Source: Megalobrama amblycephala
Taxonomy: Eukaryota; Chordata; Actinopteri; Cypriniformes; Xenocyprididae
Assembly (NCBI RefSeq): GCF_018812025.1
Contig: NC_063057.1
Coordinates: 21,313,138-21,377,137, forward strand
DNA: 64,000 nucleotides
Direction: 5' to 3'
A program made the position numbers and the translations under genes. The notes under the pieces were generated by a model. That model ran no database searches and had not been told where the DNA came from. It saw nothing but the letters and a program-made list of their open reading frames with translations. Numbering within the stretch: the first letter of the stretch is position 1; the number at the start of each line of letters is the position of its first letter. Positions 6,466 to 41,994 of this stretch are shown in pieces.

Positions 6466-6908
6466 CTGTTATAAAAGATTGGTGGAAGTAAATAAAACAT
6501 AGTAGAAAGCAAATACATATTTCATTTAAGAAAAAAAAGCTTTCACATTAGCATGATCTGATCAGATCATCTGATCTTCCATTTAATTCACTACATTTTG
6601 ATAAATATATTACACTCATCGAAGGGAATACCCTTAAGCATTCAAATGAGAACTGTCATCCAGGCATATATACTTGATTATATTAATGCCTAATTTGTAA
6701 ACTCAGTACAGAGGATGGGGTTAAAGCAGTGTTTCTCAAACTTTTTCTGCCATTCCCCACTTTGAGCCCACCTGTCCCCAATCGCCCCAACAAAATGAAA
6801 ATAAACTAGACTTTAAGTTTAACTGTTTAAATATATTAACATTTACTTTATTAACATCACATTTTAAAAAAATAACATCAAATAACAGCATTAAAAAAGT
6901 GCAACTGT
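6466..6908. other. Intron sequence upstream of the NACHT exon
   Basis: AT-rich intron DNA of the NLR gene. A stretch near 6735-6790 (TTTCTCAAACTTTTT and a CCCCACTTTGAGCCC-like segment) resembles the edge of a dispersed repeat, but no end or duplication could be defined. Confidence 0.4.
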
Positions 6909-6913: not shown

Positions 6914-7234
6914 TGTCACGGAATGCACAGACACAAAATTATAAGATCCACGTGCAGTTTAATGATGTAAGTCCAGGGAATAAACAGTCCACAAAAACAG
7001 AAACCAGAAACAAAGTGCACAAAACAGTAAACAACGAACCACAAACACAGGCAAAAAACACTGAAACTAAATAGACAGAACTAATGAGCAAACACAAAAC
7101 ACCTGAGTGCAATGACATGAGGCTGATAAGTCCAAGGGGTGAATTATGGGAAATGAAGTGAAAACTGGTGACGTAGCCCGTGCTGGAGTGCCCTCTGGTA
7201 GCCAACCAGGGTACTCCAACAGGATATCGTGACA
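6914..7234 (-). repeat. LTR (downstream copy) of the gag-only element
   Basis: 321 bp, TG...CA type. It differs from the other LTR by a 25-bp segment near 7185-7210 that the other copy lacks, plus a few substitutions. Preceded on the minus strand by a G-rich polypurine tract. Confidence 0.85.
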
Positions 7235-8553: not shown

Positions 8554-8582
8554 GCTGCTGGATCTTAATTGGTGGTTCGTTC

Positions 8583-8878
8583 TGTCACGGAATGCACAGA
8601 CACGAAATGATAAGATCCACGTGCAGTTTAATGATGTAAGTCCAGGGAATAAACAGTCCACAAAAACAGAAACCAGAAACAAAGTGCACGAAACAGTAAA
8701 CAACGAACCACAAACACAGGCAAAAAACACTGAAACTAAATAGACAGAACTAATGAGCAAACATAAAACACCTGAGTGCAATGACATGAGGCTGATAAGT
8801 CCAAGGGGTGAATTATGGGAAATGAAGTGAAAACTGGTGACGTAGTCCGTGCTGGTACTCCAACAGGATATCGTGACA
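8583..8878 (-). repeat. LTR (upstream copy) of the gag-only element
   Basis: 296 bp, same termini as the copy at 6914. Short direct repeats (GTACTCC/GGTACTCC) at the missing segment suggest a slippage or recombination deletion after insertion. Confidence 0.85.
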
Positions 8879-8885
8879 ATTATCA

Positions 8886-9165
8886 CTTTGCATTATAATT
8901 TATCAGCGGCGTAATGTAATGAAGTAATAATACTTTGTTACAGTACTTGAGTTTTTAGATTTCTGTCAACTTTACTTTTACTCCACTACATTTCCTAAAT
9001 AAAATGTATAATTTTACTCCGATACATTGTCCCAAAGCATTTTCGTTACTTACTACAAAATAAAGTCTGAAGAACACAGACTGCAAGCAAGCATGTGCAA
9101 ACAAGTGCTCGCACAACCGCACTTGATTTAAATTTCCAGGTTGCATTCGTTGCTGGAGCGGCTGA
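8886..9165. mobile_element. hAT-like repeat fragment
   Basis: The pattern CAGTACTTGAGTTTTTAG, then TTTACTTTTACTCCACTACA, is the common end sequence of a fish hAT repeat related to the one starting at 39656. Only one end is seen, with no target duplication and no coding sequence. Confidence 0.4.
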
Positions 9166-9169
9166 GAAG

Positions 9170-10710
9170 AGTGCGCTGAGTGAGCTTACTTGCACAACTT
9201 CTGTGCAAAGTCCAGGAGGATGAGGAGCAGGTACTTCTAGTTGCGCCCTATTGGCCCAACTGGACCTGGTTCCCCGAACTGATGCTGCTCACGACAGCCC
9301 CTCCCTGGCCCATTACTCTGAGGATGGACCTTCAGACTCAGAGATGGGGCACCCGCATACGGACCTCTGGAATCTCCATGTCTTGTCCCTGGATGGGACT
9401 CAGAGGTGAGATGAGACCCCAGTGAGTGGTAGACACCATCACTTCTGCTAGAGCTCCTTTGACAAGGAACCTCTATGCTCTGAAGTGGAACCTGTTAGTC
9501 GAGTGGTGTTCTTCTCATTGAGAAAACCCCCAAATTTGCCAGATTGGGTCAGTACTTTCCTTTCTGCAGGACAGGTTGGAGCAAAGGCTGTCTCCCTCCA
9601 CCTTTAAGGTGTATGCTGCCGCTATTGATGCACATCATGACGCAGTTGATGATAAGTCTTTGGGGAAACATGACCTGATCATAAGGTTCCTGAGGGGGCA
9701 GAGGAGACAGGTGAATCTGCCTCATCCTCCCTTTATACCCTCTTGGGACTTGTCCCTTGTGCTTACAGCTCTTCAGGGACCACCATTCAAACCTTTGAAA
9801 TCAGTTAAAAGCTCTGTCACTTAAGATAGTTCTCCTGGTTGCACTGGCCTCCAACAAGAGGGTAGTGGACCTGCATTATTTTTCAGTCAACGAATTTAGC
9901 CCAGGTGACACTCACATTATCTTGAGACCCCAGCCCGGATATGTGCCCAAGGTTCCTCCCACTCTCTTTAGAGATCAGGTGGTGAACCTGCAAGTGCTGC
10001 CCTCGGAGGAGCACTTGCCCTTTGCTCTGTTCTGTCCACGCATTGCGCCTGTACATGGACAGAACATGAAGCTTTAGGACCTCAGATCAGCTCTTCATCT
10101 GTTACGGAGACCAGCAGAAGGCAAAGGCTGTCTCCAAACAGAGGATGGCCCACTGGATAGTGGACGCCATCGTCTTGGCGCATCAATCCCAGGGTGTGCC
10201 TTGCCCGCTCGGGTTGAGAGCTCAGTCCACTATAGAAGTTGCTTCTTCCTGGGTGCTGGCACATGGCTGGGCAACACCTAACACGTTCGCTAGATTGTAT
10301 AGCCTCTGTGTGGAACCGGTTGCTTCCCGCATGCTCGCCCCTAGTGGTCAGTAATGCCTGAAGTCCCTGTACATCTCGGTTACGTATGTAACCCCCGTTC
10401 CTTGAAGGAGAGAACGCAGATTGTACATCCCGTCGCCACAGATCCTGTGCCACTGCTGAGCGTGGGCCATGTGCTCATCTTCTCAGCGAAAAACAGAGTG
10501 TGAGTGCACTCGGTTCCGCATTTTTACCCACTCGCGGGGAAGGGTCATATGACGCAAAGCTCAGATGCCAATGTGCATCGACTCATTTAGTTTACACTCT
10601 AAGGTGATTGGGCTCTCATGTGATATCCAGATTTGTCGGTTCACTTCTGACGTATGTCTCCTGAAGGTGAATGAGGGTTACATATGTAACTGAGGCGTTC
10701 TTGTATGTAA
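9170..10710 (+). mobile_element. Decayed DIRS-type retrotransposon, 3' part
   Basis: Plus-strand blocks, broken by stops and frame changes, match fish DIRS elements: the RNase H-side segment LLVAPYWPNWTWFPELM (about 9236-9290), then a tyrosine recombinase in pieces (LSPSTFKVYAAAIDAHHDAV at about 9590, GYVPKVPPTLFRDQVVNLQ at about 9940, MAHWIVDAIVLAHQSQG at about 10145, GWATPNTFARLYSL at about 10268). DIRS elements integrate through a circular DNA with this recombinase instead of an integrase. Where a catalytic His-x-x-Arg is expected, this copy reads AQSTIEVASSW, so His and Arg are lost. The end near 10375-10700 carries GTTACGTATGTAACCCC-type sequences typical of DIRS terminal and internal complementary regions. 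The 5' half is missing. Confidence 0.75.
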
Positions 10711-11377
10711 GGAGTATTTGGCTGTTGAAAAGGTCAGGGGTGCTGTCTGGTTAGTAGCTGTCTGGTGATACAGTACATCACCTCTCACAGTTAACCTCTG
10801 TTCTAATATTAAAAATGCCCCCAACCTGCATGGCAGCATTCAAATGTAAAAAGTCATAAGTAATCTTATACTAACTCTGATTTATCAAGTGAAAATTGTG
10901 AAAAACATAGTTTTATAAATCAACCCTTCATAGACTTTACCTTTTGTGTGCACACAGGCATTTAGGATGAAACAGATTTTCTGTACGTTAGGCCCCTGGA
11001 CTGGTGTAAAATACATCAAATAAATCACTTTAAAAAGGCTAGCTCACACTGCACAGACTGATGCTGAGCAATCACCAGATTAACATTCCTGCTTAAATAT
11101 TCCACAACCTGACAAAGGTGAATGTTCAGTCGGTGAAAACAAACAGACCAACACTAACAGGAAAAAAATGACAAAACCTGGCATTCATGTCTATTGGTGT
11201 TGGATAACATCTGTCTGTGCAGTGTGATTTAAGAGAATACTACTGTTAAAGACGGCACCTTGCTCTTCTTTGTGTTTCTCCACTGTCTCTGTGATATTTT
11301 GTGGCTCTGTGTGGAGAGACAAAAGGAGGGAAGTAAAAAAATATATAATTTTTTTTTTAGATACACAAAAGAAAATA
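10711..11377. other. NLR intron sequence without recognisable features
   Basis: No gene is supported. The small frames around 11190-11500 are short and lie at the edge of the MITE at 11378. Confidence 0.5.
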
Positions 11378-11741
11378 GGGTGATCATACATGCCATTTTT
11401 CCCAGACACGTCCTGGCCAGGATTTCTAAATTCGATATCGGTCAGAAGGCGATTTCAGAAAGCGATTTCTATGTGGAGGTCTGTGCATGCCACTGTTCCT
11501 ACTGACAGTCCTCATGCAATGCATTAAAATGTTGTCGTATTTGCAATGCTTTGATCTCTGTAGATCCCACCTTCTCACAAGCCATGATTGGTCGATTATG
11601 TATAATGCACGCTATTGGTCAAATTACTTTTCAGTCATTACCTTCAGCAAGTATGAAAACAAAGCCAAAGCTGGGACATTTTAGGCAACTTAGAAATCCT
11701 GGCCAGGACGTGTCCAGGAAAAATGGCGCGTATGTTCTCCC
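11378..11741. mobile_element. MITE, 364 bp, long terminal inverted repeats
   Basis: About 50 bp at each end are inverted copies: CCCAGACACGTCCTGGCCAG near 11401 mirrors CTGGCCAGGACGTGTCCAGG near 11698. The outermost bases are GGGTGATC and GTTCTCCC. TA flanks both sides, which would fit a TA-targeting family, but a 2-bp duplication is weak evidence. There is no coding capacity. Confidence 0.7.
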
Positions 11742-11743
11742 TA

Positions 11744-12368
11744 GCTAAAGCATGTGTGCCTTTGAACAATATGAACTTAAAATAAACTAACAGATTTACA
11801 AGCCTCTTACAGCCCTTCCTTTTATTCTATTCCTGAGTGTGATATACTGTTAGTCACCATTGACTTCCCTTATGTTCAATCACCATAGAGAATATATGAG
11901 TAAAGAAATGTCACATATCATCTTTTTTATTTTCCATAACTGCTTTGTATTACTTAAAAATCAACTCATTAAATGTTTCTTTTCCTCTTATTTCTAGCCA
12001 CCTTGTTCCTGTCTTTCTTTGTTTAAGGTTATATTCAATATTTGTAATTTCCGATTGTGATATATTTCCTTTTATGGTTTTATCTTTGTCCGCCCTCTGG
12101 ACAAGGTGGGGTGTCACTTTTTTTTCTATGTAAAGTATAAATTGTGTAAACTACTCAATAAATATTAAAAATTTGTGACATGACTATATTAATTCTTTTC
12201 ACACTGAGAGTGACTGAAAAGCAATTATACTTGATTTAAGAGTAAGAGAAATCTAATTCTTACATGAACTTTAATAGGAAAAGACACAACCACTGAGCAT
12301 TATTTCACTGATCAAGCTATTAAATGTCTGCTAATGTGTCTCAGTGAGCACAGCTGTAGTGATAGTAC
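11744..12368. other. NLR intron 2, 5' part, AT-rich
   Basis: Nothing recognisable. AT-rich sequence follows the MITE. The stop codon that would end exon 2 without splicing is at about 12331. Confidence 0.4.
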
Positions 12369-13906: not shown

Positions 13907-16460
13907 TCAAAAGTCCAAAAAATCATCTGTCAAATCTAAGTCCTTAATAAAGTCTATGAAAGGTCCCCAAATCCTATCGAATAAATGTTGTTTAGATTTC
14001 CTAATGTATGTTATTCTCTCTAGAGGGAGGCTGGACATCATCTGCTTTAACCACTGGGTGGCGCTGGGTCTGTTCACATTCTTCCAAGACAAAGCTATAC
14101 ATTTCTTTGCAGACAACAAACTTATATTTATAAAAGTACATTCAGTTTTGCTATAATTATGTTTGTCTGGGTATAAAGCTAATAAAAATAATTTTGGGTC
14201 CAAAACTATCTGTTTGGAAGTAATTTTTTCAATTAAAGTTTTTACCTCCTCCCAGAAGATTTTTATTTGCCTGCATTCCCACATGCAATGTATTAGAGTC
14301 CCTTTAGATCCACACTTTATGCATACATCCGGTATATTATTATTATATTTATTTAGTTGTACAGGTGTAATATATACGCGCATTAGCCATTTATATTGTA
14401 GCATTCTAAGACGGCTATTTATAGATATGGTATGGGTTTTAACACAAGCCCTTTCCCACTCCTGCTCTCCAAGCGATAATGACAGGTCCACATTCCATGA
14501 CATAAGTTTATCCCTCGAATTCTCTGCTACAGTGGAGATCAATAGATTATAAAAATCAGAAATAATGCCTTTTCTCAATTTATTTTTAACCATCAACTGT
14601 TCAAGCGATGTAAGGGGAGGTTTACTTAGATTATTATGATTTACTTTCACAAAACTTCTCAACTGGAGGTATTTAAAATAGTGTTTTTTATCAAGTTTAA
14701 ATTTGGATTGTAACTCTTCAAAGGACATAAATATATCAGACTCTGATGGATACAGGTCATTAATTGTTTTAAGTCCTGCCGATGCCCATCGTTTGAAAGT
14801 TGCATCTGCCCTTCCTGGTACAAAGAGCTGGTTGCCCCATATTGGGCTAAATTGTGACAAAATGTTTGATTCTTTGAACGACTTACTTACATCATGCCAG
14901 ACTTTAATCATATTTTTAAGTATTGGATTCCTAGTTTGTTTCCGTAGGTTTTTTGCCCTGTCAGAATACATGAATAATGGGAGAGATCATTTTAAATCAT
15001 GAGACTCCATTTCGACCCAATGTGGATTGTTTTTGCTTGAAAAGTAAAAGATGATAGTCCTTAACTGTGTGGCCCAATAGTAGAATTTGAAGTTGGGACA
15101 TTTTAGCCCTCCACCATCGAATGGTAAATAGAGTAAGGAAAGACGAATCCTAGGCCTCCCATTATTCCATATAAAGCCCACAGTAATTTTTTTCAACCAT
15201 ATAAAAAATTCAGGAGGTGGCGGCAGTGGAACATTTTGAAAAAGATAAAGTAACTTTGGCAGTACATTCATTTTTAGAATATTAACTCTTCCCATTATGG
15301 ATATAGGCATGGATGTCCATCTGTTAATTGAATCATTTATTGTTTTCATTAGATTCTCATAATTAGTTTTAACAACCTGATTCAATACTGGAAAAATCTG
15401 GACACCTAAATAGGTAAAATCTTCCACTACCTTAAATTTAGTAATCTCACAAATAGGATTGTTTCTTTCAGCTACATTTAATAAGAGAATGGAGAATTTA
15501 GTATTGTTTACTTTATAACCTGATATTTTCCCAAACTCCTGAATTACTTTCACCACCGCCAGGATTGACGTCTTGAGATTTGTCAAAAATAAGATGACAT
15601 CATCCGCAAACAGAGAGATTCTGTGTTCCGTGGGTCCCACTGTAATTCCCGAAATTTGTGGATGGACGCGAATGGCTGTTGCCAAAGGCTCTATTGCTAG
15701 CATAAATAGCAAGGGAGAAAGTGGACATCCCTGCCTACAACCCTTTTTAATTTTAATTGGCTCTGAAAATAACTTGTTTGACATGATTTCCGCAGTCGGG
15801 TTGTTATAGAGCATTTTGACCCATTTAATAAAGTTAGTTCCACATCCAAACCTTTCCAGAACATGAAAAAGATAGGGCCATTCGACCTTATCAAAGGCCT
15901 TTTCTGCGTCCAACGATAGGAGCGCAGTATCTTGGGTATTTTGCTTAGACCAAATAACATTCAAAACCCTTCTTACGTTATGATAACCTTGTCTTCCAAT
16001 TATAAACCCATTCTGATCCCTATTTATTATGTCCGGCAGGATTTTTTTGAAGCCTTATTGCTAATAACATTTACAAATTTTAACATTTACAATTTACAAA
16101 TGATCTTAAGATCAGAATTAAGTAAACTGATAGGTCTTAAGTTTTCGCATTTATCAGGGGGTTTACCAGGCTTTGGCAGCAAAGTAATTAGGGCATGATT
16201 CATGGAAGATGGAAGTTCGCTTTTTTCAAATGCCTCTGTAAACATATCTAATAGAGGTATTTTTTATAAAGATCAATAGGAATACCATCTGGTCCTGCTT
16301 GCTTACCAGAACTCATTCCATCAATTGCCCGTGATATTTCAACCTTATTTATTCCTATATTTAAATTAACCCTCGAATCATCTGAGATAACTGGGATATT
16401 TAGCGCATTCAAAAAAATTTTAAGTCGTTACCATCGTGATTTCCTTTGGAATCATATAAC
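13907..16460 (-). pseudogene. L1 ORF2, reverse transcriptase and C-terminal domain
   Basis: RT motifs in order on the minus strand: [12 protein letters not shown] with NVRRVLNV (about 16015-15965), [33 protein letters not shown], catalytic [11 protein letters not shown] (about 15590), [21 protein letters not shown] at 14989-14987 is in frame and the same frame continues for about 355 codons to 13907, including the L1 zinc-knuckle CIKCGSKGTLIHCMWECRQI. Upstream of about 16040 the frame is broken. Apart from those defects the domain is well preserved, so the insertion was relatively recent. Confidence 0.88.
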
Positions 16461-16461
16461 T

Positions 16462-17391
16462 TGTTGTATTATATCAAGAAAATGCAATTACCCTGCCTCC
16501 TTGTTAAGGTTTTGGATCTCTGTTGCTACACATTCGGCCAATGTATTAAATATTAGGCATTTCTTACAATATTATTGTTATTTATATTTGTTTGTTTCTA
16601 AGAAATGCATTATACTGAATGGCCAGAGATATACAGTTATTGTTAGATATGTGTGTGTGGCTGTTTACGAGAGGGAGGAGCAGAGCTGGACTGCAGCACA
16701 CAGAAGTGTGTGTGGTTCTATGTGTGTGTGCTCAAGGACACAGAACTGTGGTTCTACTCCTAAAACCTTATAAGGACATCAGCCATCTTGGCTGAGTTTA
16801 CTGGAGTCCAAGGACACAAAAGCCAGACAGTTTGCACCTGCGAGGCCTTGAGAAGTGTCTGGAAACTTTGGGAAAGTTACAACGTATGTCAATCAAGAAG
16901 ATAATGTAACGTCTGTGATAAACAACACGAGTATAAAAGACGGATGAGTTGATTGCCTCTTCGGATACTGATACGTCAGTACCCCCGACGCCTAGAAGCC
17001 CAGAGCTGAGGACAAGAAACCCCAAGCTGAAGATGGGAAGCCCAGAGCTGACTACACCTTTGACTCGAGATTGATTACTGTATTTTATACCTTTAATGAT
17101 TAAGTTTTATTTGCCTTTACATTTTTGTTTATTATAAAAGAAAAGTAACCAATTAAAAGAAATTTAATTGATTACAAAAGCTGCCTACCTTGATTATATA
17201 TTTACTTATAGCTTGATTTATAGTGTTTTAAGACTTTGAACAAGAACATACCACAGAGGAGTCTTCTGACCAAATTGTAAGTAATTTAAAATGCTTATAA
17301 TTTAGGCCAGACTCGATTTACTTTACCTAACCTGAGAATAATAAATAATAAGGTTAAAAGGTGTTAAGATCAAAATTCACACCGCAAAACA
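16462..17391 (+). repeat. 5' LTR of the 13.65-kb element
   Basis: 930 bp. A promoter-like TATAAAAG lies at 16932-16939 and AATAAA at 17340-17345, giving a plausible U3 (about 500 bp), R and U5. It ends CA directly against the primer-binding site. Confidence 0.9.
16932..16939 (+). promoter_or_regulatory. TATA box in 5' LTR
   Basis: TATAAAAG, conserved in both LTR copies, about 410 bp before the AATAAA signal. Confidence 0.6.
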
Positions 17392-17409
17392 TGGCGCCCA
17401 ACGTGGGGC
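17392..17409 (+). other. Primer-binding site, tRNA-Lys1,2 type
   Basis: TGGCGCCCAACGTGGGGC directly follows the LTR with no spacer. It is the 18-base complement classically assigned to tRNA-Lys1,2, as used by spumaviruses, some lentiviruses and some betaretroviruses. The perfect match supports recent retrotransposition competence in trans. Confidence 0.85.
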
Positions 17410-20400
17410 ATTGATCCATCGACCCCTGGCCACGGTCGATCGAGCAATGCTTTCCCATTCACTTCCGCACTCGTGCACTTGAGTTTTAGATGTAAAAACT
17501 TGGAAAGCTATGAATCACCAGGTAACCTGTAAGACCCAAAAATGTAAATAATCAAGTGGGATTATTTATAGACGACCCAGAAAGGGTTGAACGTGCGTAG
17601 AACAGATAACTTTACGAGCCAGGGAGCCGTAAAGGTTAAGAAAGCTGTAGGAGAGACAGAAAGTCTCACATAGCTAGCCTTAAAGAATGAAAGGCAGAGA
17701 CGGGCTAAAGATATGACCTGTTAGTGAAGGACGCTTCGCTTATGGCAGGGAGAGCCCAGCGAAAATCCAGCAATGCGTTTAACAATGAGAAAGAAAAATT
17801 AGCCTTTCGAGCAGACACACCGGTTCTAGAAATGGAAAGTGGCTCCTGTGACAGACCAAAATTTTTTAAACTTAAAGACTGAGGTAGGTCTAGCAGCAAT
17901 GCAAGAAGAAAAAGTGGAAACGGGGAAAATGTGTACCTGTGATAAAATTACAGTATAAAGCTACTAGAACAGGAAAATGTGATAGATACTGTTGATACAT
18001 AAAGCTAAAGAAAATGTTTTACATTCTTATAGGTGTGGTAGATTTCCAAAAAGAATACTATTTAAACCACCAGACCTGGATTTATCAAATAGTTGTTAAA
18101 ATAGTTATAAATAAATGGATGAAATTCACCTAACATAGTCAGAGGACAGTTTTATGAAGTGGATATAGGCATGCTAAAATTAGGACTTTTTAATCTGTAA
18201 CAATATGTGTTGAGAAAATAATCTTAAGTGACATGGTAATTTAAGAAAAAGTGAATTGAAAATATGATAATTGTTCCCGGAACAGTCGGGATGATTTTAG
18301 AGTAAAATAGGTGTACAGGTTAAAGAGTCTGTGAGCAGAAGCTCGGACTCAAACATGTAACAGCGGTGTACGTAAGATTGTCTCTCACACTGCACTGTCT
18401 GAGGAGCGAGAAGAGCTCATAGTTCAGAACGCTTAATGCTTAAAGACTGGAAAACAATAGTTGTTGTTATAACTGAAGAGAGGCACTGACTACAAAATAA
18501 GTCAGGTAATTTTTCTTTTAATAGAAAGTTAAATAAAGTTTAAAAGGAGTAACAATACTGTAGTATTGAAAGAATGTATTAAAAAATTCCAGACAATGAG
18601 GATAATGGAAGATATATTGCTAACAATAAACTTGTTAAATAACAAAGCAAAGTAGTAGGGAAAAAAATAAATAAATAATAATAATAATAAAAAATCTAGG
18701 ATGAGAAAAGATGATGTTATAGGACCCTCTCAGTCATCCGCACTTCAGTATGAGAAGCCTGCGATAGGGAAAGATTTACAACAGAGTCAGGGTGAGACAG
18801 AGCCAGAGGAGTTAGAGCTCGTATTCAGAGCTTGAATTTGACTCTGATACCACTGACAGTGAAAGCAGATAATCTGATATATTATATTAAAAGACGTTAG
18901 ACTACTGTAACAGTTGACATAAAAGTAACACTTTAAATATTGAATGATTAGCCTGAGGTTAAAGATGGAATATAAATATTCAGATATAGTGAGAAATGAT
19001 GTAGGATACTTAAGAAAAGAGGGGCAAAAAAAGTTGTGCCTTACAGAAATTTGACTTACGGACAGATAAAGTCAGCTCGGTGTTCACCCTTAACCGTATT
19101 GCTCAAACCGAGGGTCTAAAATGGGAAACAGATTTTTTAATGCACTAGTTACAATAAGTGGAAAAGTAACTAAAGTTTTAGAGCTAGTAATATTGTCATT
19201 AAAAAAAAAAAAAAAAAAAAAAAGGATTCTAAAAAGAGTTAGAGAGAGTAAGATGCCAGCAAGAATATCAAAAGCCAAGAGAGTGAGAGAATTTCAGAGT
19301 CCAGATAAAGAGTTGGAAAAAGACCAGAGTAACAGTGGGATTTTGGTGATTCCAGTCTGGATTTTAACCCTTGGAGTTCAATGACGAACAGAATAGTGTA
19401 CAACAAAGAATATTGGAATTAAAATTGTAAATATAACTGTGGTTAGTTATATTTTAATTGTCAGTAAATTAGTTAAGTTAAAGGGAAAGGACATTATAAT
19501 TATATGGTGCTTATGCGGACAGGAGAAAAATGCCCCTGCAAGACAGACCTGTATCAACTGAAGTTTAATTAAAGTAATGAAATTAAAATAATAAATTAAA
19601 CAGGTTATTACTGAGAGATATTAATGGATAAAAGAAAAAGTGATATTGAGATAAGTAATAACTAAATTTTCAAATTACATTTATATAGACATATAAACTG
19701 GCTGTTGAAAAATACCAGAAAAATAAAGGGCAATAAATTGAAAGAAAGAAAAAATGAAGCTTAGCACTATCTTAGTTTGTAACATGATAATACAATTTAG
19801 AGAAAGTTAATAAAAGTTAAGAAAAGGATTTAAAAACCAAATCAACAGAAGACTACTCTAAAAATAAATAAATAAATATCATTAGTAGATTTGTTGGACA
19901 ATATAGTGATAGGGGAAAGGCTACAAAACATGCTGTATAGCTTAACATATTGCAAATCTAAGGTCACTTTAGTCCTTATTAAAAAGGAAATAATGACTAT
20001 ACAGCAGGGGAAAAAATGCTAATATGATAGAGTAACTTAAAACTTAAAAAGTGATTTGAGAAAAAAAAAAAAAAAAGATTGAGAGTAGAAAACTGAAGCA
20101 ACTTCAGAATGATTGACTAGAAAAGCCTAGAAAAGTTTAGAAAAAGGAGAGATTGAGACTCAAATACCACAGGTTTTCTACAGGAAAACTTTGCTACCAG
20201 GTAAGAAAGAATATGATTTTTATTTTGCTAAAATAAAATATTGAATTACTGTTATTACAGGTTATACAATTTATTAGCAGTAAGAAATTGTAAGAGATTT
20301 AGTGATTAAAACAAGTAAAGAAGAAAAAGAAAAAAGTTATAATTGGCAAAAGCATAATTAAAACCATAAAATCCACCTATACATGTGAAGTACTATGATT

Positions 20401-23097
20401 TTTTTTATACAAAAACTGTATTTTTAAAGTCAAAATTATATTGTAGAATTATTAAAGAGGTTAAGGAACCTGTTACTAATGGTTAAATTCAAACAGAGTC
20501 ATTTAAGGTATAGTGACTAAGTCAAGTTTAATGCTTTAAGCTGAAGGAAAAAGCCATGATAGAAAAACAGAATAAGAGATGGAAAAGTGATCTTAAATAA
20601 ATTTAGATTACAATGTTAGGTCTATACATAAGACATTTAGGAAAAGAAAAAAATTGTTTTACTTAAACAATAATTATATTAATATTATTAGATTAAAAGC
20701 TATTTTAATTTGTGAGCTATTTTTTAATGGTAGAAGGTATTAAAATGAATTAAATGTCCATCCTTCCAGCCTCTAAATTTAGCCAAGAAAACACTCTGGA
20801 TGGATGGTACTTGAAATGTGTATTTAATCAATTGATTTTGAAGTCTTTTATAAAGAAAATAAAATGTTTAAAAGCTATAGAGGTAGTACTCAAATTGCTT
20901 AGGAAGTAAAGTTTGAGGATACATATAAAAATGATGATTAATGATTTAAAAAAAAAACATTATTAATGATTGATGTGGTTGAGTTTTAAGCATTTTGGAT
21001 TTTGACAAATACACAGTTTGTAAAATATTACAAAATATATATAAATTATATAGTTTAATGGGTTACATTATATTAGGATAGTCGAATGGCAAAGCCTATT
21101 CACACTTAAAAGAGGATGATTAAACTAGACAGAATTAAGCAAAAGAAGTGTTAGTGTGATTAAAGGAGATTTTCTAATGTATACATTAAACAATAAAACA
21201 TTAGACAATAGATTTGAATATTAGTACAATAGGATATCAATAATAGAAAAAAGACATACCTGTTTGAAAAGAAACTGGCAATAGAGAAAATCCATTATGC
21301 TTGATTGTTTTTGTTAATAAAAAGTTAGCAGTTCTTTGTAAAAGATATTCCAAGCTGAAAAGTTGGGACCAAAGTCAGCAGCTCATATGACGAAGATTTA
21401 AAAAGTGCCTCAAATACAAAAATGGCAAAGGAAGAAAAATTAATAAATGGTAATAAAAAGAAAATAGATTTCTTATGTTGTAACAGCTGTCAGTGACAAA
21501 AAGTTAGAAAAAGGAAAAGAAAAAAAAGAGATTTGTTTAAAAAGTATAATTGTTTGTAAAAAAATATGTGCACTGAAGATTTAATTTTGAAGCAGGAGAA
21601 ACAAGCCGAGATAAGAGAGTCAGTTCCAGGCACAGCCCAGAACGCAGAGTTCACGGGAGTGTCAAGGTCACTCTGAAAAATTAGGAATGAGAATTTTACC
21701 AGACATCCCAGCAAAAGTGTAAAACTATTTTTAATGGAAAAAAAAAAAAATAGATTATGCCGAATTAAATAAATTGGACTGATTCCTGATTTAGTTAAAA
21801 TGTAGAAAAGTTGTGAGGACTTAACCTTTTTACCCAACCAGACAATTCTAAAGAAAACACAGTAATATCTGTGGCAATAATAAAGCTCATAAAAGATTTA
21901 TGAACAAGTTTGACACCTAAGTGAAAATTTGATTGAAGTTTGACAGATAACAAGATATTCCTAAATGAGGACAGACATATTTAGAAATAGGATTACAATA
22001 TTAAAAGGTATTAAAAGATATAACTGAACTATAAAGGTTAAAGATATAACTGAAGTATAAAGTAAGAGTATGTGTATATATATGAGAGTATAATAACAAT
22101 ATATGACAGAGTGAATCAAATATGGAGGTTATAGATAACAAGGAAAAATATATTTAAATCATTAATTAAGTGGGTTACATAATGGATTTTTAGACTGACA
22201 GTCACTGGGGTTGCATGAATGCACTCTCAGTGCTGGGTTGCACCAGGAAAGGAATTTGTTGTAAAATCTGTGCCAAACTGATATAAGGATGATCCACTGA
22301 TGCAGCCAGAAGAAACAGAGAGAGATAGAGAAAGAAAGAATGGATCACCAGAATGAAATTTGAAAATTTGCAAACATAACAAAAGCATTTGTCATTTTAA
22401 ATTCAGAAGAGATAGTGACTGCTTTTGTTCTGACCACAAAACAGTTATTTTAGGAAAATAAAGAGAAAGTTTGAATATTGATTAACTGAAATAATTTAAT
22501 TCAAGTATTAAGATATGCACCAGAAGGATAGAAATGCTAAAAAGCTGTAGCAAACTGATAAAAGTTGCATGCAAGATGAAATGAATGAAATTAATGTTTT
22601 TAATTTTGCAGCTATTATTTAGCAAATATAAATTACAAATTGCTTAATGCAAAGTGAGGTAAAAACTATCTGAATAAAGTAACCATTTAAAAAATTGAAA
22701 AGAATTATAAAAGTTTGGATAGTTGACAAAACTATTGGATTATTAGAACATTTCCTCTGATATAAAGGGAATTTGTTTATTGCTATGAAAAAACAATGTG
22801 ATAGAAGATATTTAACAATAAAATTATGAATACTATAATTTTAGTAAAGATAACTAGTCAGAAAGATATTAGGACTAAGAATAATTTAATCATAAAATGA
22901 AATGCATATTGTCAACGAACATCGAAAAAAAAAATGTTTTTTTTTTTAGAAAGAGACAGGTAGGTTAATAACACCTGTAAAACTAATTCACTAAATAAAT
23001 AACATGCACAAATGTGTTGAGAAGGTATTCGAATATACAGTATTTACTGTGATGATTCAGTTAAAAATACAACCAGGGTTCAGAGAGGAACTAAAGG
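17410..23097 (+). other. Interior of the LTR element, first part: no reading frame
   Basis: Dense stops in all frames and strong plus-strand bias (A and G high, C low). Patches with more balanced composition occur at about 17400-17900, 18290-18480, 18720-18890, 19230-19380, 21580-21700 and 22190-22340. The frame at 19121-19384 contains a poly-Lys run from A23 (about 19201-19223) and is not convincing as a gene. No domain is recognised. Confidence 0.6.
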
Positions 23098-23101
23098 TTA
23101 A

Positions 23102-24628
23102 CCCTCTGGAGTCTGAGGCTGATTTGGGGCCTGGAGAAGTTTTGACATGCTCTGACATTTGTGCTTTTTTCACTTGTTCATAAACATATAAATGACAAAA
23201 GTGTCATTACACTGTATTCAGCACAAACTAGGCTACAATAATATGTGAGGAACATGTATGAACATGTTTGTGTTTTTGAAGGAATAATGTTTATGCGTGG
23301 TTACTGAAAAAACAAAAAACTTAAGTCACTGAAATAAGGCCTGTGTTCACAAGACTTTTGGGTATTGGAGGTTGTAGACTAGAGTTTTTGCTTCAAAATT
23401 ATGTAAAAATTATGCTGCTTACTCCTTCATATAAAACAATATATTGATTTAGTTTTTGTAAGACACTTTTTGCCAAGAAACACAGTATGCATGGAGGCGT
23501 GAATCACCACTGAAAAATGCACCTGAGAAGACAAAAGAATTGGATAGTAATGAGTTGAAATGACTTGCATATTAATGAGGCATTTCAGTCAGGTAGGCTG
23601 TGAAAAAAACCTTCTGTGATGTCTCAAGCTCATCATGATATATGAAACATACAGAAAAATAATATCACAATATAAAGTAATGGTTTTATATTATACTTTA
23701 AAATATAATGTATTTCTGTGATGCAAAGAGTCTGAATATAGGCTTTTAGTTTACAAGCATGCACATTTGGAGAAATATTGGATTCTCATATGCTTATGTC
23801 AATTTTCTATACAGAGGAGTTATATTTATTTAATATTCATTATTTAATGTCATTACTATGAGCGCTGGTGTTTTCAATTCATCCTTGAAGTCGGAGGGCG
23901 CTCTCTGTGCATTTTTAGTCCACAAATTCATCTAAAAGAAGAAGAGGCTATTCCATGAATGGAGTTTCCAATTCATACTGCAGCCGGAGGGCGCTAAAGA
24001 AACAAAAACTCATCTGTAGAAGAAAATAAAACAGGAACTAACTGCATGTCTTCTAGAGCTCCCTAACCATGACTTTTACATCCAGATAAACACTTTTCAA
24101 GACAATAAATACACGATTGAGACGATGTATGCATGTATTGCCTCTGAATTTGCGTCTGAATAGCGCTGGCTCCGTGGGCGTGGCCGCATTAGCGGATAAT
24201 GAGCTGAATCACGGACTTCTGACATGGCTGTCTTTTCATACAGATTACATAAACACAGAAGGTTTGTTTTCGATTTGACTTACATGATTTAAAACCTGAC
24301 ATCTTAACGTTTTTTTAGACATAAGTTTAACTTTTCTGTGATTAGTATTCACTAAGTTACAGTTCATTTTCTGAGAACTATCAGATTGGACTTCGTTCAG
24401 AGGGAGAGGAGAAATCACGCATCATGTTAGTTTTCTTTATTTTACAAAAAGCACAACATTGTGTTTTTACTCTGAGTGTATACAAATAAAAGAAGATATT
24501 CTATAGTTTCAATTGATATATTACTTATGTCTCTATGACAAAAAATGACGGAGTATTTTAAGTCTGTTTTGGTGCAATGTGAAAAAAAACCTGCAAAACG
24601 CGCCGGCGCGTTTTCAGACCTCAGAGTG
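23102..24628. mobile_element. TTAA-flanked (piggyBac-like) non-autonomous transposon, 1527 bp
   Basis: The left end CCCTCTGGAGTCTGAGG and the complement of the right end (CACTCTGAGGTCTG) form imperfect inverted repeats. TTAA lies at both edges (23098-23101 and 24629-24632), the duplication made by piggyBac and Kolobok elements. Inside is an imperfect direct repeat around 23880 and 23950 (GGAGGGCGCT motifs) and no transposase. It sits inside the LTR element's interior. Confidence 0.7.
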
Positions 24629-24632
24629 TTAA

Positions 24633-27600
24633 ACCACTGATAATGCCTGAAAACTACTGAAAAGTTGAATATTTTAGAAGGAGCCATGGAGGTAAAAAAG
24701 AGCCTTGTGTGTGTCTGCCAGGAATGTAGGATGAGTTATCCTCAAAGTAATAATGACCCAGAGACTAAGTGAGCACATGGATGACTATAGGACTGCCTAT
24801 GGTCCGGTATACAGTGGAATACAATGTGATGAATGTGTGGAAGACATTCGTCAGAAGTAACTTGCTGGTATATGTGGTAGGCATAGAATTTGGGGCATGG
24901 ACCTATGGTGATTTAACCAGTAAAGGCAAAAGTGAAGGGACAAAGGTGTAGAATCAGAAACAGCTGGGTATCTCTAGCGTCGTATCTGTAGTCAAAAGTA
25001 TTGACAAACACGAATGACATACAAAGCAAGGGGTTGCTGGTTTTGTCCAGGAGATTTGGGAGAAATCTAGAGAGCCTGAAACCTTGCTTTAAAGATGGCA
25101 AAATGTTCCAACCAGAAAACTGGTTAATGGGAACAATTGCTAAAAGCTATTTAGAATATAGCAAAAGAATGCATAAATTAATTTCCCAAGAAGGGGAGAA
25201 TTTGATGAAATGTATTATTATGCTTTATCAATTTTGACAAATTGGATAAAAATTAAGTGTATAGCAGAGCTGAGTTTCCTGTGTGCCAGTGAACTTCAGG
25301 AAGGGGGAGAGGAGCTGTATCTCCTGGCAGAGAGCCATGGAAGGACAGGACAGAAGTTCTCTGGCACAACAGAACAACTCACAGCAGACTGCAGGGTTTA
25401 GAGCAGGGCTGGGCAAACTCGGTCCTGGAGGGCCGCTGTCCCTGCAGAGTTTTGCTCCAACCCTAATCAAACACACCTGAACCAGCTAATCAAGGTTTTC
25501 AGGATTACACGCAGGTGAGTTTTATCAGGGTTGCAGCTAAACTCTGCAGGACAGTGGCCCTCCAGGACCGAGTTTGCCCAGCCCTGGTTTAGAGGTAATA
25601 GTGAACAGGACCAACACCTCAGAACCTCAGATTCTTACCTGTGCCATGGGAAAGAGCTGGCACAAGATTAACAGAACAGTAAATTATTAAAAGATTCTGA
25701 TGTGAGTGGGGTTATTTTGAATTTACTTATCAGAAACAATGAAAGTAAATAAAGACCACAAAGAACAAGAGCAAATTTTTGCCCAAAAAGAACAAAAATA
25801 ATGCTGAAATGTAGAAACATCCAGCCAATAAGAAACAATTTTTGTGGGATAAATTATTAATTTAATACAAACAAACAAACAAACTATAGATGTTGCAGGA
25901 ATGTGGCTTTTAGTTGATTTTACTGTACAATTGATTGTACAATTGACCATAACTTTTGGAAGTAAAAGAATAAAAACATATACTTATACTTATAAAATAA
26001 TAATTCATAATAATTCTTTATAAAATAATAAAGAACAGATATATCTCTGTTGTATGTGAACAACATTGGAAGAATCGAGCCAATGTGAGAAAAATAATAT
26101 AAGAATGTTACTGTAGAAAATCTACAAGTTTGTATTACAGAAAAGTGGAAAAATATATTTAATGTTACATAAAAGGAAGATAATTTGGATTTGGCAGAAA
26201 ATGCAAGTTATAAAACATATTGACACTGAAGAAGAGCGTCACCAAATGCATTTAAATTAAGTGGTTATATGAAATAAGGAATAACAAACTGGTTTAAAAC
26301 AGGTAATAGCAGACATTGAGACATATTCCTCAGATAAAATTTTTAATTAAATATAAAATATTATATGATGGAACAGCTGAGAATTATGGGATATGAAGAA
26401 TCCAGTAGGTAAACTAGAGTCCACTGGAAGATAGATGAAGTAAATGAGGGGTAAATATTGTACAAAACTGAAAAACCTCAATGATATTGGTATGACTAAA
26501 ACAGCAAGATGTTTTGGGGAGAATGTTCAGACAGAAATGTATGAGCAGAGGAAGGCAGTACTTATACACTATAAGGTGATTATACACTGTAAAACGAAAA
26601 GGGACTTTATAAACCTAAAGAAAAATGACTGGAAATTAAAATATTGTAGATAAAAAGGAAAAGTATATATATTTATTTAAAAGCTGGAATAATTTTGGAA
26701 AAGGGAAAGAGAAGGTAAACATACCTATAGCAACATTGGTCAGACTTGCCAAAGTTTAAGAAGAACGTGTATGACAAAAATAATATACTGAATTGTGTAA
26801 GAATGTAATTTTAGAAAATCTGACAGAGACAAATCCTAAAAACCACAATACAGTTAAGATTAGGATGCTTATTTGGTGATATTGAAACAAATATTTTGAA
26901 AACTACTAATAAGTAATTAAGTAGAAGATTATAAGAAAATTAATCAAGAGATAGTGGTGATATAAAACAGAGTAAGAGTGTCCATGGACAGGATAATATT
27001 ACCTTGTGCTTTTAGTAAGAGTTAGAAATGAAAATTGTCTAAATAAATTCATAAAAAACATAAAAATAATTGAATAAATATGCCAACACTTAAATATAGA
27101 ATGAATGTTAATATTAGTGGAATATTTCATGGTTGAGAAGAAATGTATGTTGACAGAAGTATATGGACAGTATATTATTCAAGAAGAAAACATTTTTGTG
27201 CACATTTTTGTTTTTAGGAACCTAGAAAGAGTAATATTAATCAGTGGATAAGTATGATGATAGCACAGAGCATATAGGCCAATAATATTTAGAGAGAGTC
27301 ATTTAAAAAATAGATGATGGAAACTAAGGAAAATATATGCCTCACTATCTATTATATTAAATTGCAATATTTTTTAATATGTAGAAAGAAGATAAAGAGA
27401 AGATTTGGACTGAAAAGAGAGAAACTGGGAAACTGAGAAAACAGCCAAAACTATAATTAGTTATGTATGTTATTATAGAATACAACATAATTAAATTAAT
27501 AATAGAAAATGAGCTCATTATAAATAAGATGTGCTAGTAGACATATTGTAGTATTTGAAATGACAAGTCATTTTGCTGTGATTGATGCAGGGTGTTTGAA

Positions 27601-29172
27601 CACAGCAAGAGAACAGATGAGGAGGACAAACAAGCTCTCATTAGAAACCAAGAGCACTGAACGGCCTTGAGTGAATCTGAAAACCCTGAAAGAAGGGGGC
27701 AGAAGTAACATAAGGAGTCCTGCATAGTTTGTGTATGCTTATTCAGTTATAAGATAGATTATAGCAAGTAACGACAGCAATACATCCAGCAGCACTGAGA
27801 CCTTATAGCTGGGGTCAGTGAAACCCTTTAGGTGATCCTGGAACTCAGGAGAGCTTTAGGGGGAGAACCCTTGACAAGACCATTTAATTTCTGGAGGGTG
27901 TTTTGAGGATTGGAAAAGTATGAGGTACCACCTGAAAATGATGTACCAAAGGATGAACCTTATAATGGGGATTTATGTAAAGATTTATTATAATAAATTA
28001 CTTTATTAAAAGTATGATTTATGCTTTAAATACTTAAAAGCCATTGTGTGAATTAGAAACATTATTGGCTTCAGTTGACTTTGAAATATAGTTTAGGAAG
28101 CGGCTGTCGGCACTTGGTGTAATAGCAATTAGATTGTGTTTGTATGTGTGAAAGTAGTATAGTTTATTAGTGTAAAGACATTAGACAGTATATTAAGGAA
28201 GTTAAAATATGTGTTATGGTAAATGAAGATGAAACTCTATGATTGTAGTACAGGTTATAAGATTCATTTGTAAATTTTTGAATTTAAAATATGAAATGCT
28301 TAAATGATGGTGAATTTTAAGCTTGGGAGACACATTTTGTTTATAAAATTGACAATGGGAACATTATTGGAACAAACTGATTTATTGATATAGAATGTAT
28401 AATTTATGTTTGAACATAATAATTCAGAAAGTATAATAAAGACTAATGTTGACACAAAGGATTAATTACTGGATTGTTTTTAAAATAATGAATGTACTGG
28501 ATGAATAATGAATGAACTAGAGAAACCATTTTTGTAATGTATTAGTTGTAATGTCAATATTTACTATGTATTATATGTAAATGCAACAATAAGTGCAAAA
28601 ATTTTGAATTAAATGTATTGCTTGAAAATATTTCACCCAGAGTTTTGCAATTAGATATACCTTGTGCACTGTTTGAATTGGTTAAAATGTATGGGTTTTT
28701 TAAATTTGTAGCTAGAGCAAGAAACACCCCAGATACTAATTTTGTGCCTAAAAGATCCGAGGGAATGTAGTCGGCCCAAGTTTCCAGGGTACATGGCCTG
28801 GAAGCTCAGATCCCCTTTGGTTTCTGCAAAGTGTCTAAGCCAGGGGAGGAGCCACACCTTCCTTTGGGAGGACCTGAAGGGTGCTCGAAGTAATTAATGG
28901 ATTCTTTGTAAGATCCAAATTTGGCTTATACTTGAAAATCAAGCAGAGCACAAAGTTTTGCCCTTAAATGATTCTGTACAGAAATATAATTGATTATTAA
29001 AATTATGGAAACCAGAAAACTGGGTGGAATGTTACCTGAATGTGTTACTAACTAATGTTTAAGAATTATGAACAAATGTACATGTTACAGTTAAAATTTA
29101 AAGTGCACAACGTTTGTGTGCCACAACTATGCTTGAATAATGATGTTGAATAATGAGTCCGGATAATTGCAT
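24633..29172 (+). other. Interior of the LTR element, second part: no reading frame
   Basis: Same purine-rich, stop-dense sequence. Less biased islands lie at 24660-25100, 25250-25640, 27550-27900 and 28640-28900. The 25001-25237 frame has an unremarkable charged sequence with no known motif. No env- or pol-like motif could be defended. Confidence 0.6.
25404..25586. mobile_element. 183-bp palindromic hAT MITE
   Basis: The ends CAGGGCTGGGCAAACTCGGT and the complement read inward almost perfectly for about 30 bp. Both flanks are GTTTAGAG (25396-25403 and 25587-25594), a perfect 8-bp duplication typical of hAT. No coding sequence. Confidence 0.9.
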
Positions 29173-29180
29173 GAAGGGGG

Positions 29181-30110
29181 TGTTGTGTTATATCAAGAAA
29201 ATGCAATTACCCTGCCTCCTTGTTAAGGTTTTGGATGTCTGTTGCTACACATTTGGCCAATGTATTAAATATTAGGCATTGCTTACAATATTATTGTTAT
29301 TTATATTTGTTTGTTTCTAAGAAATGCATTATACTGAATGGCCAGAGATATACAGTTATTGTTAGATATGTGTGTGTGGCTGTTTACGAGAGGGAGGAGC
29401 AGAGCTGGACTGCAGCACACAGAAGTGTGTGTGGTTCTATGTGTGTGTGCTCAAGGACACAGAACTGTGGTTCTACTCCTAAAACCTTATAAGGACATCA
29501 GCCATCTTGGCTGAGTTTACTGGAGTCCAAGGACACAAAAGCCAGACAGTTTGCACCTGCGAGGCCTTGAGAAGTGTCTGGAAACTTTGGGAAAGTTAAG
29601 ACGTACGTCAATCAAGAAGATAACGTAACGTCTGTGATAAACAACACGAGTATAAAAGACTGATGAGCTGATTGCCTCTTCGGATACTGATACGTCAGTA
29701 CCCCCGACGCCTAGAAGCCCAGAGCTGAGGACAAGAAACCCCAAGCTGAAGATGGGAAGCCCAGCGCTGACTACACCTTTGACTCAAGAGTGATTACTGT
29801 ATTTTATACCTTTAATGATGAAGTTTTATTTGCCTTTACATTTTTGTTTATTATAAAAGAAAAGTAACCAATTAAAAGAAATGTAATTGATTACAAAAGC
29901 TGCCTACCTTGATTATATATTTACTTATAGCTTGATTTATAGTGTTTTAAGACTTTGAACAAGAACATACCACAGAGGAGTCTTCTGACCAAATTGTAAG
30001 TAATTTAAAATGCTTATAATTTAGGCCAGAGTCGACTTACTTTACCTAACCTGAAAATAATAAATAATAAGGTTAAAAGGTGTTAAGATCAAAATACACA
30101 CCGCAAAACA
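29181..30110 (+). repeat. 3' LTR of the 13.65-kb element
   Basis: 930 bp, the same length as the 5' LTR with only substitutions and no indel. The TATAAAAG box is kept at 29651-29658. Preceded by GAAGGGGG (29173-29180), a short polypurine tract. Confidence 0.9.
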
Positions 30111-30114
30111 AACT

Positions 30115-31142
30115 TCTGATAGTAGTCTTTAAATGCATTATTAATATCTCTAGGGTCTGTGAGCGTTTTTTCCTGTGTTCTAATAGATGTAATTGGTGTT
30201 GATGATTCAAGTTGTTTAATTTGCCAGGCTAATAATTTTCCTGCTTTATCTCCTTGTTCATAAAATGACTGTTTTAATCTTAAAAGACTTAGACGCAGCC
30301 CTAAAACTAGATTGTTTATCATATTCAGCTCTTAGTAACAGCAGTTCTTTTTTCAAATCTGTGTCATTTGTTTGATAAACCCTTTCCTGAATGGTCCTGA
30401 TTTTAGTTTCTAATTCCAACCTATCCCTATTCTAACCTATTCTTAGATTTATTGCCCGTGTAGCTAATAATATGCCCCCTAAGAAACGCTTTAAAAGCAT
30501 CCCATCTCACGCACTCTGACGTTTATTTTGTATTTATTTGAAAAAATTCTTCAATCTGATGTCCAATATACTTAACAAACTCTTCATCCTGCAGCCATTT
30601 ATGCTGAAAGCGCCATCTAGGTGGATCACATGTAAGTTTGTCGTCTCTATATATAAGACAACAGGGTGCATGATCTGAGACTACTATGCTGTCGTATAAG
30701 CAATCTTGGATTTTGGATAGTAATTCTGATGAAATTAAGAAATAATCTATTCTCGAGTATGTCTGAAATGTTGCCGAATAGCATGAATAGGCTTTGGTTT
30801 GTATACATTAACCAAGTTTAAGTTCTCTAATAATAAAGATCCCTGAACTATTAAATATCTGCCCTTCTTATCTTTAATAACATTTTTTACATGAAATGGA
30901 ATGGAATCATGGATCAGAGTCATAACTCCTCTTGCTCTAGATGTGAATGCTGCCGTAAATACACTACCCCGCCACCTCCTCCTAACCCTTCTCTCATCCT
31001 CCTCCACAAGGTGTGTCTCTTGCAGAAATATTATCTTAGAGTCCATGTCTTTTAATTTTGTCATAACTTGTTTAATCTTCTTAACACGTTGTAGGCCCCT
31101 GCAGTTCCACGTAACAAACTTCAGGTTCAATGTTTGTAACAT
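30115..31142 (-). pseudogene. L1 ORF2, AP-endonuclease part
   Basis: The frame from 31142 has the L1 endonuclease signatures LKFVTWNCRGLQ, FLQETHL and GRYLIVQG with NLVNVY. Later blocks in another frame contain SRIDYFLIS and VVSDHAPCCL near 30700-30650, the C-terminal catalytic motifs. The spacer toward RT (AGKLLAWQIKQLES, about 30230) is also present, then the sequence is cut at 30114 by the LTR element. At least one frameshift (about 30750) separates the pieces. This enzyme nicks target DNA to prime reverse transcription. Confidence 0.8.
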
Positions 31143-31680
31143 TTGAGATATATTAAAACTGTAAAATCAGGAAATAAGTATTTACCTCATAAGATAGGAT
31201 TTTTCCATAGAGAAGCGTAACCAACCCGGATATGAGAACATATATCCAACACCATGAACGCGAACTACCCCTCGTTACGTCCCCGTATCCCTCCCTCGAC
31301 AGTACGTCTCCCGCTATCGCATGTGACCACTCCATACCCATTGAGGAGCAGCCTAACCACTCTTCTCTAGCCAAACCAAAACCCTTACTACCGATGCTGT
31401 TCACTATTATTAACAATCAATTAACCACTCTTGTTTCACTGCAAGTTTACACCCTTTGTGCTCTTTTTATAACGCACAATAAGTGCGCCTCCATATTCAA
31501 TCACCCTTTCCTTGTGGGAAAAAAAAAAAGAAAAAAAGAAATGCACCAATAAAACTGGACACTTCAAAACTTAGACATTTCGAATTAACTCAATATCAAA
31601 AATCTAAACAAAGACAGGTGTTTACCGCACAGCGTATCTGGAAGTTTCTCACTGATAAGAAAATAAAGAGAGAGTGTGGT

Positions 31681-32605
31681 TTAGTCCAAGGCTGGCAGTG
31701 ATTCATCCTCTTCTGCTGCCTTCTGAACTTTCTTCACAAACTCTCGTGCCGTCGCTGCTGTTGTGAAGGAGTGAGTCTGACCCTTATAAGTCACCAATAG
31801 TTTGGCCGGATGAGCCACTCCGTGCCGCAGTCCCAGTTTGCGTAACTCCGCTCGAACCGAATCAAACTGCTTCCGTAGTTGATGTAGTCCAGCTGCTGTA
31901 TCCGGGTATATCCGTACCTGTTGATTTTGGAACCGAATGTCATTTTTTGCTCGTGCTGCTGCAAAAATCACCTGTTTATCCTTGTAGTTGAGGAATCTCA
32001 TTATGAGAGTGCGAGGTGGTGTGTTGCTGTCCCTCCTAGGTCCAACACGGTGCGCTCGTTCTATGACAACTGCCCCTGTGCCGAGCATCTCCGGTAACCA
32101 CCTCTCTAAAAACACACATGGGTCCTGTCCTTCAGCTCCCTCCGGCAGGTTGACCAGTCTTAGATTGTTTCGTCTAGATCTTGCCTCGAGGTCCATAACT
32201 TTGTCTTCCAGTACTTTCTCATTGGATTCCAGTGTGTTCACTTTAGCACGTAGGATTTCTATCACGTCTTTCCGTTTGTGATACTCGCCGGATACAGTCA
32301 TTTATCTCTTTCCTCAAACCATCAATGGATTCCACCACTTTGTCAAATCTAGAGGAAAAATCCATTTTCATGGAGTTGACAGTGGACAGTATTTCGTCTA
32401 ACTTGCTGTTTTGGGTTTTCTGTTTATCTTCTCCATCAGACGCCGCCATTAGAACAGAGCTAGCATTAGAGCAAGGGCTCGAGTTAGCATTAGCATTAGC
32501 CTTCTGCACTTCACCACGAAGATGATAGTCCGTCAGCTTGGGTTGTTTTGATTTTTCGCTTGCTTCTTGGCTTGCTTTTGCTGCTTTAGGCATAATTCTA
32601 TCCAC
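31681..32605 (-). pseudogene. L1 ORF1 (RNA-binding chaperone), one frameshift
   Basis: From ATG 32605 the frame encodes a Lys/Ala/Ser-rich start, then a heptad-like helix (LDEILSTVNSMKMDFSSRF) and GLRKEINDCIRRVSQTE. Near 32290-32250 it shifts frame into ILRAKVNTLESNEKVLEDKV, ARSRRNNLRLVNLPEG (start of the RRM) and the C-terminal domain (RTLIMRFLNYKDKQVIF, RAELRKLGLRHG, ending near 31681). This is the coiled-coil/RRM/CTD layout of L1 ORF1p (Transposase_22 family), which coats L1 RNA. One frameshift is the only disruption seen. Confidence 0.85.
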
Positions 32606-41714: not shown

Positions 41715-41994
41715 AGTAAGTGATATTTTATACTACTTTCAAACTTAGGCTACATGACCTGTTACACATGCAAGCTCATGCAAACATACACATTCACACA
41801 CACACATACAATTTAGTCCCTAATCATGAAAAATGTACACCAAATAATTATCCTATTTCTTGCAATAACAAAGGCTCTTTTTGTTATTTTCTTTCTGTTC
41901 AGTCTGTGAGATCGGACTTGATCTCAGTGTCGCAAAGGGAGAGGGCCACCATCATATAACCTCACACGTGAGCAACACACTGAATATATTAAAA

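Follow-up and report, generated by a model that had tools for sequence, protein, structure and literature searches.

The best-known examples of retrovirus-type elements that are fully non-coding come from mouse and, under the name large retrotransposon derivatives (LARDs), from plants. Mouse ETn bears long terminal repeats (LTRs) but codes for nothing and depends on the coding element MusD for its movement, and the non-autonomous mouse element VL30 is co-packaged with murine leukemia virus (MLV) (both as described in PMC6466679). For the zebrafish endogenous retrovirus (ERV) Bik-1 (BHIKHARI), a lokiretrovirus relative, a preprint reports that pol is predicted for none of the copies in the reference genome, and the element was inferred there to move with the enzymes of a partner (PMC10996621). 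According to a review that covers LARDs, the LTRs of such elements seldom lie more than 10 kb apart (PMC6431247), and the phrase "large retrotransposon derivative" also appears in a toad genome paper (PMC6895153). Here, a stretch of 64,000 nucleotides from Megalobrama amblycephala (RefSeq assembly GCF_018812025.1, contig NC_063057.1, forward-strand positions 21,313,138 to 21,377,137; hereafter the window) was analyzed. It harbors a 13.65-kb LTR element, which is very probably a non-autonomous element of endogenous-retrovirus type that carried cis signals but no recognizable genes at the time of insertion and was moved by proteins made elsewhere. An initial annotation, made from the letters of the window, had termed the element LARD-like and such derivatives as described mainly from plants; as evident from ETn, VL30, Bik-1, and the toad paper, the latter statement was too narrow.

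The borders given in the initial annotation proved to be exact (Table 1). The element has the structure of a provirus, with paired LTRs, a short target-site duplication (TSD), a primer-binding site (PBS) beside the 5' LTR, and a purine tract beside the 3' LTR. Alignment of the two 930-bp LTRs yielded 19 mismatches (nine transitions and 10 transversions) and no indels, corresponding to a Kimura two-parameter (K2P) distance of 0.0207, with a BLAST score of 1592 bits, far beyond chance. The earlier count of about 19 mismatches (about 2%) was thus confirmed by a formal divergence check, and the PBS and the 4-bp duplication were found to be perfect and intact as had been claimed. The interior measures 11,789 bp rather than the about 10 kb first given for it. 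What we term the core comprises the 10,042 bp that are left when the PBS and two nested DNA-transposon-like inserts are taken out.

Compared with ETn/MusD and VL30, which are mouse elements of classes II and I, respectively, and of which the VL30 insertion named in PMC6466679 has 5.5 kb, the fish element is 13.65 kb long, carries a tRNA-Lys1,2 PBS, and contains no retroviral remnant found by Pfam. Bik-1 encodes Gag in one long open reading frame (ORF) (PMC10996621), whereas the element encodes nothing recognizable. The foamy-like endogenous retroviruses (FLERVs) of teleosts and DrFV-1 resemble it in their fish hosts, their TSDs, their tRNA-Lys PBS (AciFLERV and AliFLERV), and their size of up to 17 kb (PMC5512871, PMC6431247); however, the annotation of AliFLERV includes gag, pol, env, and accessory genes (PMC5512871), none of which were detectable here. 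With LARDs, which are described as LTR elements whose large interior need not be coding and which are moved in trans (PMC6431247), it shares an interior of several kb without coding capacity, but the vertebrate host and the retrovirus-type PBS set it apart from these derivatives, best known from plants. The LARD label presupposes a family whose copies have one non-coding interior in common, and the element is known from one copy. By analogy, the element may work like ETn, VL30, Bik-1, and LARDs, membership in any one of these families being unproven. A large non-coding foamy-type element in fish was not found among the literature matches listed, which is no proof of its absence from print.

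For an evaluation of coding content, six-frame translations of positions 17393-29194 were searched in 12 plus-strand and nine minus-strand pieces, with X placed at stops. None of these 21 pieces matched a Pfam profile at E <= 1, neither spumavirus gag, pol, or env nor the degraded gag/pol that, according to the initial annotation, a profile search across the interior might reveal. In a scan with the piggyBac-like insert removed, none of 12 plus-strand pieces had a match at E <= 10. The same method recovered RVT_1 in the flanking long interspersed nuclear element (LINE) with an E value of 2.5e-30. The longest stop-free runs of the interior comprised 96 codons on the plus strand and 135 codons on the minus strand, and both stayed within the 95th percentile (103 and 154 codons, respectively) obtained from 200 order-1 Markov shuffles. 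The assertion that no frame was longer than about 115 codons therefore holds for the plus strand, on which a long gag ORF of the Bik type is absent, and is slightly surpassed on the minus strand. Period-3 power had a median of 0.88 and a maximum of 2.78 in 73 windows of the interior, i.e. no three-base periodicity, whereas the medians were 6.49 and 5.41 for two open-frame regions, 1.97 for the lesioned LINE ORF2, and 0.90 and 0.73 for two flanks. Stops in the three plus frames of 17392-29180 numbered 323, 283, and 357. Their total of 963 was below the order-1 expectation (1028 +/- 22) and in line with that of order-2 shuffles (about 960), and none of 18 blocks of 1.2 kb had a stop deficit at a fraction of <= 0.05.

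The composition of the interior, which the initial annotation had not remarked upon, bears on its origin. The core contains 40.6% A, 28.2% T, 19.6% G, and 11.5% C. When 500-bp windows were scored with thresholds of > 0.1 for AT skew and > 0.15 for GC skew, both were passed by 15 of the 19 core windows versus two of 99 outside, and both skews were positive in all 19 core windows versus 24 of 99. The piggyBac-like insert has equal A and T and thus lacks the A-over-T bias, and the LTR is nearly balanced overall (A ~ T) despite skew in some of its segments. The 3' purine tract GAAGGGGG recurs as two full copies on the same strand of the core, where 0.10-0.12 are expected; two copies were reached in none of 300 order-1 and one of 300 order-2 shuffles, and the rest of the window contains no copy on either strand. 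That one strand is biased over 10 kb, up to the borders of the element, would be more readily explained by long replication as RNA than by recent capture of host DNA. These observations led us to regard as unlikely a one-off chimera, in which DNA of the host or of another non-viral source came to lie between retroviral signals not long before insertion and did not give rise to a lasting family of non-coding copies. Such an event would agree with the single known copy and with the description of LARDs as DNA enclosed by two LTRs and mobilized in trans (PMC6431247), but the bias pervades the core and is rare outside it, and exact purine-tract copies lie within the interior.

The LTR distance implies a change of about 0.0104 substitutions/site per copy since insertion. 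Decay to this extent predicts about six stops per 3929 codons, in accordance with the earlier argument that an autonomous element of such age should show few stops, but 283-357 are present per plus frame. With the slower of two substitution rates, 3.5e-9, the LTR distance corresponds to an age of about 3 My. The rate of 1.46e-8 given for fish in PMC5512871 places the insertion at 0.71 My (0.39-1.03). How much decay would hide a reverse transcriptase (RT) was simulated by mutating a LINE RT and searching it with a profile of 54 relatives that were at most 46% identical, in 20 trials per level. All 20 trials recovered the RT at 0.2 substitutions/site, 17 did so at 0.3, four at 0.4, two at 0.5, and none at 0.7 and 1.0.

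The LTR element inserted into an L1-like LINE; by this position, the LINE is the older of the two. Its RT part is located at 14987-16054 and matched PF00078 (E 2.5e-30) in one of three frames, as expected, while an endonuclease-like frame of the split LINE (30747-31166) matched Exo_endo_phos with an E value of 0.001, under the family cut-off. An ORF1-like frame (31681-32301) was noted by eye in its upstream part. When the flanks were rejoined on a single AACT, an open run of 89 codons bridged the insertion site, and beyond it LINE-like sequence continues in shifted frames (LINE likeness at the junction was judged by eye). The LINE retains open frames of 355 and 359 codons that adjoin each other. 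A database search with its RT returned 993 relatives at E <= 0.001 among 2274 candidates. Among the best 120 of these, 13 bore a species name, namely 12 teleosts, one of which additionally bears a ferret name, and one bichir relative. The fragments P0035, P0042, and P0044, which are among the RT matches listed, showed 93-99% identity over 41-49% of the query; this would be compatible with a young LINE family, but they may include this very copy. Together with the fish-specific FISNA domain in the NLR-type frame of the window, the species names point to a ray-finned host, in all likelihood a teleost.

Because the profiles were empty, stop runs lay within the shuffled range, periodicity was lacking, simulated decay remained detectable far beyond the change estimated from the LTRs, and the host LINE is recognizable, the interior was most likely already non-coding at insertion, its coding capacity having been lost before. 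The deduction of the initial annotation that the element was non-coding at insertion and mobilized in trans thus gained support. The annotation had also cautioned that gene conversion between the LTRs could simulate youth, a known caveat of LTR dating (PMC5512871). An old autonomous provirus whose gag, pol, and env decayed in place behind such converted LTRs would also fit the plus frame with fewer stops than its shuffles. We nevertheless consider it very unlikely. Roughly 0.3-0.4 substitutions/site or more are required to mask an RT, the TSD is intact, and the LINE, although older, still has its two long frames and an RT found at E 2.5e-30. Conversion could equalize the LTRs but would not preserve the target LINE, which argues against a great age masked in this way. 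An assembly or tandem-repeat artifact joining unrelated sequence between two LTR copies appears highly improbable: a single assembly underlies the element, but its outer flanks belong to one LINE with the open run across the rejoined AACT, and PBS and purine tract lie exactly at the LTR borders. Erasure of coding by deaminase hypermutation during the last reverse transcription is hardly credible. The interior is indeed A-rich (39%) but has more G (20%) than C (12%), whereas G should have become scarce through G-to-A editing; A and T are about equal over the complete LTR; and the periodicity, which should outlast point changes, is absent.

Several points weigh against the reading of an element that was gene-free at insertion and moved in trans. 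The lowest plus frame has 283 stops, a value reached by none of 200 and none of 300 order-1 shuffles (expectation 323-327), and it also lies below the order-2 expectation of 304 (fraction 0.047). The spread of stops between frames also exceeds that of shuffles (fractions of 0.007 and 0.023 for order 2, and 0.017 and 0.023 for order 1). We take this unevenness as a faint and unexplained signal, possibly the trace of very old coding. Furthermore, Pfam overlooks some retroelement pieces: the open frame 2106-2810, which resembles a LINE by eye, remained without a match, and the LINE endonuclease was recovered at no better than E 0.001. The decay simulation relied on the RT of a LINE, searched with a profile built from relatives of that RT, rather than on a retroviral RT, and the host LINE has frame lesions in its 5' half. 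Finally, the evidence comes from one copy and one event.

The cis signals permit a closer, if less certain, placement. The first 17 bases of the PBS agree in all 17 positions with the PBS that PMC3386198 prints for human foamy virus. A hairpin with a palindromic loop starts eight bases 3' of the PBS, and hairpins of this type occurred in 12 of 4000 shuffled 200-nt leaders. Together with the splice-donor consensus of the LTR, which is also present at 29996 in the 3' LTR and, near 46880, in the end of a related LTR, and with the two internal purine-tract copies, this hairpin would make up a foamy-virus-like motif set, another point that goes beyond the initial annotation. The set was given moderate weight because the likeness is one of layout and the motifs are short and were selected after the sequence had been read; with respect to the foamy virus cis-acting sequences CAS-I, CAS-II, and CAS-III, the element, which lacks coding, was compared by description only. 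The tRNA-Lys1,2 PBS is not confined to foamy viruses either, as simian SERV also has it (PMC8775094). Moreover, 11 distinct hairpin sites of the same type exist in the real window (about 0.03 per 200 nt), three of them inside the element; the hairpin is therefore modest evidence, of limited weight when taken alone, and its frequency slightly lowers the probability of the gene-free foamy-type lineage proposed below. In the core, plus-strand GTRAGT donors were depleted compared with order-2 shuffles (one versus 6.1 expected, fraction 0.013), a weak result for one of six patterns. The other five were not clearly off expectation: AATAAA (33 versus 30.5), ATTAAA (28 versus 23.6), AGGTRAG (one versus 1.7), ACTYAC (two versus 2.6), and TTTATT (eight versus 11.8).

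Mobilization of the gene-free element would begin with transcription from the LTR, after which the RNA would be packaged by the proteins of another element. Reverse transcription would be primed by tRNA-Lys1,2, plus-strand synthesis would be primed at the 3' purine tract and perhaps at the internal tracts as well, and integration would generate the 4-bp duplication. Of this route, the sequence shows the structural end products. The helper providing this trans-complementation was likely a foamy-type (spumaretrovirus-related) or a lokiretrovirus-related element. By analogy, the element itself is possibly of foamy type, comparable to ETn or VL30 but longer. We further propose, tentatively, that it represents a natural gene-free foamy-type lineage, which would have dropped coding, kept foamy-like cis signals, and lived as a germ-line parasite of foamy-like or lokiretrovirus-related helpers, its interior being molded into an A-rich, purine-loaded state by RNA replication. 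If so, a 13.65-kb fish element with foamy-like signals would indicate that life without genes evolved in connection with foamy-type replication as well. In a copy free of genes, signals at the RNA level are separated from coding, and whatever its sister copies conserve must have its effect as RNA or DNA. Comparison alone would then suffice to map the packaging and priming signals of fish elements of this kind.

Table 1. Features of the LTR element and of the LINE it interrupts (positions in the window)
Feature	Position	Strand	Basis or remark
LTR retroelement with retroviral provirus structure	16462-30110	+	13.65 kb
Downstream part of interrupted L1-like LINE ORF2, RT PF00078 E 2.5e-30	13907..16461	-	Pfam
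TSD, left copy AACT	16458..16461	.	flanking sequence
5' LTR, 930 bp, TGT...ACA	16462..17391	+	LTR-LTR alignment
TATAAAA, possible promoter TATA box in 5' LTR	16932..16938	+	motif match; putative function
GTAAGT, splice-donor consensus in putative R region of 5' LTR	17277..17282	+	putative function
AATAAA, poly(A) signal near 5' LTR end	17340..17345	+	motif match; putative function
PBS, tRNA-Lys1,2 type	17392..17409	+	18/18 to PBS printed in PMC8775094
Non-coding interior, A-rich and purine-rich, containing two nested inserts	17410..29172	+	profile, stop, and periodicity scans
Hairpin, 7-bp stem, loop with palindrome TGGCCA; candidate dimerization signal	17418..17440	+	shuffle-tested
Nested piggyBac-like DNA element, TTAA borders	23098..24632	.	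class predicted from TTAA borders
Internal copy of 3' purine tract GAAGGGGG, central-PPT-like	25300..25307	+	motif match
Nested palindromic hAT-like element (25404-25586) with perfect 8-bp duplication GTTTAGAG	25396..25594	.	class predicted from 8-bp duplication
Second internal copy of 3' purine tract GAAGGGGG	27692..27699	+	motif match
3' polypurine tract (PPT) GAAGGGGG, abutting 3' LTR	29173..29180	+	sequence
3' LTR, 930 bp	29181..30110	+	LTR-LTR alignment
TSD, right copy AACT	30111..30114	.	flanking sequence
Upstream part of interrupted L1-like LINE	30115..32301	-	frames, Pfam, eye

A second TATAAAA match lies at 17133 in the 5' LTR. Beside the internal purine tract at 25300, a GC-richer patch (25250-25395) was noted by eye in the otherwise AT-rich interior; the 500-bp GC figure around it also takes in the GC-rich hAT-like insert. 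A diverged LTR relic at 46880-46977 matched the LTR end of the element with 78% identity over 100 aligned bases. By eye, the likeness continues as far as an ACA end near 46997; GTAAGT and AATAAA are common to both. No PBS follows the ACA end, and the relic (46880-46997) is probably a solo or truncated LTR of a related family. A 25-base word spanning LTR and PBS had no match among viral contigs, a collection unlikely to contain such an element, and an 18-base LTR word matched three marine-bacterial loci among genome contigs, which was taken as chance.

Across the window, Rfam at the gathering cut-off and ARAGORN gave no matches, and outside the element Pfam gave none in three frames of 9000-12000, in 7273-8892, or in 41337-41732. 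Two direct repeats of 273 bp (6914-7186 and 8583-8855), 98% identical, flank tandem-repeat-rich open frames and may represent another small LTR-type element. An open frame at 4682-6547 with FISNA (fish-specific), NACHT, NOD2_WH, and NLRC4_HD2 domains is a piece of a fish NLR-type gene. A second LINE at 48156-51276 has two long frames, of 590 and 455 codons, that overlap, with endonuclease domains in the first.

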